From Oasisia sp. SBJ-2009 (taxonomy: Eukaryota; Annelida; Polychaeta; Sabellida; Siboglinidae): 64,000 nt of DNA. The stretch spans positions 31,857,251 to 31,921,250 of the forward strand of contig OZ024862.1 of NCBI GenBank assembly GCA_964017155.1, written 5' to 3'. Numbering within the stretch: position 1 is the stretch's first letter; each line of letters begins with the position of its first letter. The notes under the pieces were generated by a model, which saw nothing but the letters and a program-made list of their open reading frames with translations, had not been told where the DNA came from and ran no database searches. The position numbers were made by a program, and so were the translations under genes. This document shows, piece by piece, positions 49,101-52,100 of this stretch.

Positions 49101-52100
49101 GTAACTTGGTGTAGATGATGGACAATGGCAACATTTAAGTAATTTATTTTTAGGTTCCTTGCTAAAGGTGCCTTCTCAGCTCAGATTTTTGAATAACATG
49201 CTTAATAATCTCTTAAAATACTAAATTTAATCTAGAAGCCACTATATGATGGAACTTTTTCATAATGTTTGGTATTTCTATTACTCACACACTATAGTTT
49301 TGGACATAAGAACCAGATGATGAATGAGCTTTTAAATCAATTTGTGGCAGTGTGATAATAGCCAGGCTCGCTACAGCTAATGGTGTATCTGGAAGAAGCT
49401 GACAGTGAGGAGGATGAGGCAGAAGGAACTGATGATGTACCTGGAAGAAGCTGACAGTGAGGAGGATGAGGCAGAAGCAACTGATGATGTACCTGGAAGA
49501 AGCTGACACTGAGGAGGATGACGCAGAAGGAACCGATGATGTACCTGGAAGAAGCTGACAGTGAGGAGGATGAGGCAGAAGCAACTGATGATGTACCTGG
49601 AAGAAGCTGACAGTGAGGAGGATGAGGCAGAAGGAACCGATGATGTACCTGGAAGAAGCTGACAGTGAGGAGGATGAGGCAGAAGGAACTGATGATGTAC
49701 CTGGAAGAAGCTGACAGTGAGGAGGATGAGGCAGAAGGAACTGATGATGTACCTGGAAGAAGCTGACAGTGAGGAGGATGAGGCAGAAGGAACTGATGAT
49801 GTACCTGGAAGAAGCTGACAGTGAGGAGGATGAGGCAGAAGGAACTGATGATGTACCTGGAAGAAGCTGACAGTGAGGAGGATGAGGCAGAAGGAACTGA
49901 TGATGTACCTGGAAGAAGCTGACAGTGAGGAGGATGAGGCAGAAGGAACTAATGATGTACCTGGAAGAAGCTGACAGTGAGGAGGATGAGGTAGAAGGAA
50001 CCGATGATGTACCTGGAAGAAGCTGACAGTGAGGAGGATGAGGTAGAAGGAACCGATGATGTACCTGGAAGAAGCTAACAGTGAGGAGGATGAGGCAGAA
50101 GGAACTGATGATGTACCTGGAAGAAGCTGACAGTGAGGAGGATGAGGCAGAAGCAACTGATGATGTACCTGGAAGAAGCTGACAGTGAGGAGGATGAGGC
50201 AGAAGGAACCGATGATGTACCTGGAAGAAGCTGACAGTGAGGAGGATGAGGCAGAAGGAACTGATGATGTACCTGGAAGAAGCTGACAGTGAGGAGGATG
50301 AGGCAGAAGGAACTGATGATGTACCTGGAAGAAGCTGACAGTGAGGAGGATGAGGCAGAAGGAACTGATGATGTACCTGGAAGAAGCTGACAGTGAGGAG
50401 GATGAGGCAGAAGGAACTGATGATGTACCTGGAAGAAGCTGACAGTGAGGAGGATGAGGCAGTAGGAACTGATGATGTACCTGGAAGAAGCTGACAGTGA
50501 GGAGGATGAGGCAGTAGGAACTGATGATGTACCTGGAAGAAGCTGACAGTGAGGAGGATGAGGCAGTAGGAACTGATGATGTACCTGGAAGAAGCTGACA
50601 GTGAGGAGGATGAGGCAGAAGCAACTGATGATGTACCTGGAAGAAGCTGACACTGAGGAGGATGACGCAGAAGGAACCGATGATGTACCTGGAAGAAGCT
50701 GACAGTGAGGAGGATGAGGCAGAAGCAACTGATGATGTACCTGGAAGAAGCTGACACTGAGGAGGATGACGCAGAAGGAACCGATGATGTACCTGGAAGA
50801 AGCTGACAGTGAGGAGGATGAGGCAGAAGCAACTGATGATGTACCTGGAAGAAGCTGACAGTGAGGAGGATGAGGCAGAAGGAACCGATGATGTACCTGG
50901 AAGAAGCTGACAGTGAGGAGGATGAGGCAGAAGGAACTGATGATGTACCTGGAAGAAGCTGACAGTGAGGAGGATGAGGCAGAAGGAACTAATGATGTAC
51001 CTGGAAGAAGCTGACAGTGAGGAGGATGAGGTAGAAGGAACCGATGATGTACCTGGAAGAAGCTGACAGTGAGGAGGATGAGGTAGAAGGAACCGATGAT
51101 GTACCTGGAAGAAGCTGACAGTGAGGAGGATGAGGCAGAAGGAACTGATAATGTACCTGGAAGAAGCTGACAGTGAGGAGGATGAGGCAGAAGGAACTGA
51201 TGATGTACCTGGAAGAAGCTGACAGTGAGGAGGATGAGGCAGAAGGAACTGATGATGTACCTGGAAGAAGCTGACAGTGAGGAGGATGAGGCAGAAGGAA
51301 CTGATGATGTACCTGGAAGAAGCTGACAGTGAGGAGGATGAGGCAGTAGGAACTGATGATGTACCTGGAAGAAGCTGACAGTGAGGAGGATGAGGCAGTA
51401 GGAACTGATGATGTACCTGGAAGAAGCTGACAGTGAGGAGGATGAGGCAGTAGGAACTGATGATGTACCTGGAAGAAGCTGACAGTGAGGAGGATGAGGC
51501 AGAAGGAACTGATGATGTACCTGGAAGAAGCTGACAGTGAGGAGGATGAGGCAGAAGGAACTGATGATGTACCTGGAAGAAGCTGACAGTGAGGAGGATG
51601 AGGCAGAAGGAACTGATGATGTACCTGGAAGAAGCTGACAGTGAGGAGGATGAGGCAGAAGGAACTGATGATGTACCTGGAAGAAGCTGACAGTGAGGAG
51701 GATGAGGCAGAAGGAACTGATGATGTACCTGGAAGAAGCTGACAGTGAGGAGGATGAGGCAGTAGGAACTGATGCCGCCCGTGAAGACTTCGTTGAGGTC
51801 TCGCTGCAGTAGGAACTGTTTCAGCACGAGCACCAAGTAGGGCAAGTTGGGGTACTGCCCCATCATGTCCTACAACACAGAGCATCACAATGACAACACA
51901 TCACTGCCCCATCATGTCCTACAACCCAGAGCATCACAATGACAACACATCACTGCACCATCATGTCCTACAACACAGAGCATCACAATGACAACACATC
52001 GCTGCCCCATCATGTCCTACAACACCATCATATCCTACGCCACAGAGCATCACAATGACAACACATCACTACACCATCGTGTCCTACAACACAGAGCATC

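Follow-up and report, generated by a model that had tools for sequence, protein, structure and literature searches.

Both splice junctions of one exon lie within tandem arrays in a TENT4-type poly(A) polymerase gene

In the 64,000-nucleotide stretch of Oasisia sp. SBJ-2009 DNA analysed here (the window), exon 5 of a poly(A) polymerase gene lies between two different tandem arrays, each spanning one of its splice junctions: 12 acceptors stand before the exon and 45 GT donors after it. The copies in both arrays are all on the intron side of exon 5. The arrangement raises two questions: (i) what kind of repeat has amplified the two junctions, and (ii) how the ends of the exon could be chosen among so many sites.

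The gene is on the minus strand and encodes a TENT4/Trf4-type non-canonical poly(A) polymerase, the family known in animals as TENT4. Nine exons, joined from 62502 down to 45696 with the first donor and acceptor 51869 of exon 5 in use, give one open frame with a terminal stop. The model starts at 62502, where the first modelled exon was cut to hold the frame, and is without N-terminal exons; the acceptor score of that cut exon (-19.8) is meaningless and was excluded from comparisons, as was a score of -17.7 in the same table that belongs to the stop codon and not to a donor. Pfam searches identified the nucleotidyltransferase palm and PAP-associated domains (PF22600, 6e-22; PF01909, 5.9e-12; PF03828, 1.6e-19), and the best PDB match among 25 matched sequences is yeast Trf4 (3nyb, E 1.2e-54). 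Together with the open joined coding sequence, these results bear out the enzyme family, strand and junction named in a first-pass annotation of this DNA. Exon 5 proper (51729-51869) has 141 nt, 47 codons and phase 0-0. It is preceded by an exon at 52597-52692 and followed by exon 6 at 48861-49074, where the PAP-associated domain begins; both are placed by the open joined coding sequence. The frame of exon 5 and the homology over its junctions are direct observations: the Trf4 alignment has no gap at either edge, and the innermost acceptor and first donor therefore yield the normal core of the family.

On the donor side, Tandem Repeats Finder detected an array at 49380-51774 (minus strand) with a period of 52, 46.1 copies, 97% matches and 0% indels. 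A script count found 46 TTCTTCCAG junctions with a spacing of exactly 52 bases, and the 46 uninterrupted 52-bp units first described are confirmed. The authentic end of exon 5 forms the first copy, with 51728 as the first intron base. CAG|GT is present at 45 of the 46 junctions (44 CAG|GTACATC and one CAG|GTACATT); the last reads CAG|ATACAC and has lost the GT, and the junctions run to 49389. In each unit, 42-46 bases from the end of exon 5 are joined to the first 6-10 of the intron. The split slides by a few bases because the edges are alike (CATCAG in the exon, CATCAT/CATTAG in the intron), and the border in the earlier division into 42 exonic and 10 intronic bases can move accordingly. The array fills 2340 of the 2654 nt of the intron after exon 5 and is plainly more than chance. 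Viral contigs contain no exact match to a 22-base pattern of the array.

Nine types occur among the 45 units beyond the exon's own copy (19, 6, 1, 4, 2, 3, 6, 3, and 1 copies). Units of one type tend to stand near each other, a pattern that fits local expansion; none of 20000 free shuffles was equally clustered. No order of unit types beyond neighbour pairs was found (1378 of 5000 Markov shuffles reach the observed value). A higher-order repeat was rejected as well: the best lag, 24 units, was reached by 758 of 5000 shuffles, and no period of the donor array is significant.

The acceptor of exon 5 has also been amplified. An array of 49-bp units at 51854-52419 (minus strand; Tandem Repeats Finder and motif count) contains 12 TAG|GAYA sites, of which 51869 is the authentic acceptor and the other 11 lie upstream. 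The spacing is 49 bp except for one step of 18, the beginning of exon 5 recurs in every unit, and this array fills 550 of the 727 nt of the intron before the exon. It extends beyond the limit of 51869 that the first-pass annotation had set for the repeats. The same annotation had described about 45 GT donors after one acceptor; the donors are there, but they follow 12 acceptors.

Arrays of this kind may be collapsed or inflated in assembly. A similar structure was mis-assembled in an earlier lancelet draft (PMC3087553, in the passage on that draft), and copy number differs between two versions of another assembly (PMC3902484, in the section concerned). Against such an origin here are the nine unit types, which are ordered and clustered, the exact 52-base register kept over 46 junctions, and the different array on the other side of exon 5. 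We consider an artefact very unlikely, and even if the arrays are real the exact copy number may be wrong.

Addressing the first question, the closest known structures are the 'mirage' minisatellites of lancelets. In the cited sections, these are tandem units that span exon-intron boundaries on the donor or the acceptor side, whose extra copies carry splice signals, whose length is unstable, and which are reported as not disturbing splicing (PMC3087553, PMC3902484). Both exon-5 arrays likewise contain exon sequence together with adjoining intron sequence, and their extra copies retain splice signals (45 of 46 CAG|GT on the donor side; 12 of 12 TAG|GAYA on the acceptor side, where the copies were found by that motif). 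They differ in extent. Among mirages, which also include Adh3 and TnC, the same sections give 3 or 6 units in BflGb6 and 2 to 7 in PGBD5 (PMC3087553, PMC3902484); against the 2 to 7 units of mirages for which they give a number, there are 46 and 12 copies here, at both junctions of one exon. We favor, as the probable explanation, a tolerated junction-spanning minisatellite of the mirage type, with splicing normal via the innermost pair of sites. Its most likely history would begin with a duplication of the exon-5 end and intron start, perhaps aided by the CATCAG/CATTAG near-repeat at both edges. The 52-bp unit would then have expanded to 46 units, and a 49-bp unit over the exon-5 acceptor may have expanded independently to 12.

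Addressing the second question, we compared the predicted strength of the sites, scored in bits with weight matrices. The 45 donors share one score of 5.5 bits, the 97th percentile of 1723 GTs, and the first is not stronger than the other 44. The authentic acceptor of exon 5, at 6.1 bits, is tied with five upstream copies. Site strength therefore cannot decide the choice. RNA structure that might hide the distal donors was considered and rejected: exon 5 with the first units does not fold more stably than shuffled sequence (z -0.73; 19 of 100 shuffles equalled or surpassed it).

Most likely, it is the innermost pair, acceptor 51869 and first donor 51728, that defines the exon and so keeps splicing of the transcript normal. 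The spliceosome would pick this pair through exon definition and position, as in intron 7 of human factor VII (F7), and the remaining 11 acceptors and 44 donors would be intronic bystanders. The F7 intron has far fewer repeat copies than the exon-5 donor array; it also differs in its shorter unit and in being repeated on the donor side only. In the cited account of F7 exon 7/intron 7, with its 37-bp repeats, only the most upstream donor is normally used, by 'oriented scanning' (PMC6627357). The first-pass annotation had left two options, growth of the enzyme by blocks or reliable choice of the first donor. The second is the better one, judging from the ungapped Trf4 alignment and the lancelet mirage and F7 precedents.

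The consequences of using other sites can be read from the frames. All 11 upstream acceptors lead to an early stop, at codon 5 or 6 in 10 cases and codon 35 in one. Donors n = 0, 3, ..., 42, which make up 15 of the 45 GT donors, preserve the frame of exon 6, as the multiple-of-three rule first proposed had it, and the other 30 shift it; among the frame-shifting cases listed, a stop follows 56 or 133 nt into exon 6. Use of the other sites would therefore mostly destroy the product. The exon-5 frame itself runs on for 830 codons before it reaches a stop at 49379-49377. This had been claimed correctly but counts for little by itself; we rejected it as a sign of selection, as 62% of dinucleotide-preserving and 28% of mononucleotide shuffles of the commonest unit are also stop-free. 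Every frame of the commonest unit is free of stops. In types F (2 units) and J (1 unit), one of the three frames does contain a stop, and it is by chance that the exon-5 frame avoids it.

It could be supposed that splicing occasionally takes a donor with n = 3, 6, ... and that the enzyme then gains 52 residues per three units. Fifteen in-frame donors and a frame open throughout would allow this, and the repeat-border sites of UBC can yield length isoforms, according to the cited part of that study (PMC10809524). The inserted block, however, repeats a segment of hydrophobic helix within the catalytic core (mean Kyte-Doolittle 1.9 over 17 residues), and in-frame donor use would therefore probably harm folding. 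Against this idea also stand the frame shift at 30 of the 45 donors, 52 not being a multiple of 3, and the open frames, which are expected of such a unit anyway. The 52-residue blocks in the core that the first-pass annotation envisaged are thus permitted by the frame but unsupported otherwise, and we regard an isoform generator as highly improbable.

The donor junctions have a further property. Scored as acceptors, the 46 junctions of the donor array reach 8.5-9.9 bits, compared with 6.1 for exon 5's own acceptor. Among the 8 TENT4 acceptors whose placement is correct (4.8-9.5 bits), 5 to 8 score lower than these junctions, which lie at about the 99th percentile or above among 1310 local AGs outside the arrays; the one junction tested individually was at the 99.5th. 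The commonest unit type ends in TTCCTTCTGCCTCATCCTCCTCACTGTCAGCTTCTTCCAG, a predicted 3' splice site as good as these genes use, with the donor directly behind it. By the weight matrices, each repeat border is predicted to hold an AG|GT core that carries donor and acceptor signals alike. On the minus strand of the region, 45 of 123 AGGT sites lie inside the donor array, and their combined donor and acceptor score is reached by 3 of the 78 sites elsewhere, including the authentic acceptor 48243. As every donor core scores as a strong acceptor, the array can be described as consecutive candidate splice sites of the dual-specific (recursive) type.

Related sites are known from two other settings. 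In UBC and other tandem-repeat genes, AG|GT at repeat borders is able to act as donor and acceptor, with introns that are multiples of the unit; the cited pages report a fish with as many as 46 units in its UBC homologue, and the authors argue there that repeat growth at such sites is less harmful because the repeats are removable by splicing (PMC10809524). UBC units are whole coding monomers and a multiple of 3, unlike the 52-bp exon/intron hybrids at exon 5, for which dual use is only predicted. Ratchet points of recursive splicing also juxtapose an acceptor and a donor (PMC8605326, in the description cited). These are single sites in long introns, whereas here 45 identical candidate sites occupy a 2.7-kb intron.

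Such cores could make the array correct itself. Each TTCTTCCAG|GTACAT core would serve as donor and acceptor, and the 52n bases of excess left by a distal donor would later be removed by a splice from donor 1 to the acceptor that ends the retained block. Splices within the array would regenerate identical sequence and be invisible in the mRNA, and with many routes converging on the same mRNA the array would therefore be tolerated at any length. Consistent with this are the high scores of the junctions in both roles and the position of the nine variable sites of the unit, none of which falls within the 15-nt splice core (P 0.034, uncorrected). Human UBC uses dual-specific sites at its repeat borders, and dual-specific introns show an 8.4-fold enrichment in tandem repeats, in the results cited (PMC10809524). 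On the other hand, the pyrimidine-rich stretch encodes a conserved hydrophobic helix, and the acceptor-likeness is perhaps accidental; the invariant core may reflect homogenisation of the array, and the last junction is without GT. A length of 52 nt is probably below that needed for one animal intron, and at least two units would therefore be needed. Further, neither the acceptor array nor the donor repeat of a later exon (ACG|GT) is dual-specific, and self-correction therefore cannot explain the persistence of such repeats in general. We judge this reading unlikely. Equally doubtful is its extension, that 45 recursive sites allowed almost unlimited growth in a gene of essential type and that the acceptor copies, which are not dual-specific and bring stops, stayed at 12. 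The bystander reading, with the innermost pair in use, remains our preferred one.

On the opposite (plus) strand of 49380-51774, the units are purine-rich with C/D-box-like motifs (CTGATGATG, CTGA). An antisense RNA was considered and rejected: cmscan detected no RNA family at gathering score in the window. A permissive search returned 18 matches on the plus strand of the array to the archaeal C/D-box RNA sR2, at 24.8-27.8 bits against a gathering score of 42. An sR2 reading was rejected with all 18 matches below that score; they are probably chance, produced by two motifs of the unit, CTGATGATG in 32 exact copies and GCTGACA in 45.

Weaker repeats adjoin other junctions. A later TENT4 exon at 46589-46706 (minus strand; joined coding sequence, Tandem Repeats Finder) has tandem repeats on both flanks. 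On its donor side, repeat finding and junction-to-intron alignment revealed a degenerate repeat of about 51 bp in 3.3 copies (46420-46594, minus strand), whose downstream copies have GTATGT/ATGTAC where the junction has GTACGT. Its alignment score of 42 compares with 12-18 in 6 other exons, and with a 99th percentile of 28 and a maximum of 44 in 400 random intron windows. Abutting the acceptor, on the intron side only, repeat finding placed a repeat of about 16/30/46 bp (46710-46823, minus strand), where self-similarity of the junction is 26, between the 95th and 99th percentile.

The neighbouring plus-strand gene is GCIP-like (Pfam GCIP_N, 2.4e-29; GCIP_C, 4.7e-18). Its exon borders were set by eye, exons 2 and 3 are without an in-frame join, and acceptor 3 scores -1.4. 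An array of six identical 29-bp units (40891-41063, plus strand) ends a few bases before the acceptor of the exon that starts at 41070. Within each of these units, TTTTGTGTAG resembles an acceptor and AAG|GTGTGT a donor, and any unit could therefore make a 14-nt exon. An intron of the same gene carries 33 units of 20 bp (39550-40205, 97% matches), about 100 bp past a donor, with several frames open. Positions 1-36530 (plus strand) hold a satellite-like array of 2533-bp and 2073-bp units, the first 300 bases of which are 100% identical in 15 copies; no ORF of at least 150 aa was found in this array. Its end, at about 36530, lies 77 bp upstream of the presumed GCIP-like start codon at 36607, and the repeat therefore includes the upstream region of the gene.

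Whether repeats and junctions are tied beyond chance depends on the null. When every array is collapsed into a single unit, 3, 4, and 5 of the 13 arrays are no more than 0, 5, and 20 bp away from one of 30 junctions, where 0.54, 0.72, and 1.26 would be expected (P 0.014, 0.004, and 0.006, post hoc and for one window). Overlap of full-length arrays is not significant (3 versus 2.5, P 0.49; 4 versus 2.6, P 0.22; 5 versus 2.9, P 0.11). The collapsed unit is the null suited to array origin. For self-similarity, also a post hoc test of this window, 4 of the 30 junctions rank above 99% of positions outside arrays, but so do 16% of random positions anywhere.

The locus had been called very unusual. 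This holds for its size and double-sidedness but not for its kind, as mirages are known; what sets this case apart is the tens of copies, their presence at both ends of one exon, and the predicted dual-specific cores. In the open-licence full-text literature we found no TENT4 case of junction repeats and no exon in which both junctions are multiplied to this extent.

DNA repeats of this kind are known but little studied, and those at exon 5 are an extreme example. With 45 donors of identical core and 12 near-identical acceptors around one exon of a conserved enzyme, the locus amounts to a natural experiment in how splice sites are chosen. Should only the innermost pair be in use, the choice must depend almost entirely on position and exon context. 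Junction repeats have been proposed as a route to new introns, in the discussions cited (PMC3087553, PMC10809524). If the array splices itself out tracelessly, it would show how such repeats last long enough to become introns.
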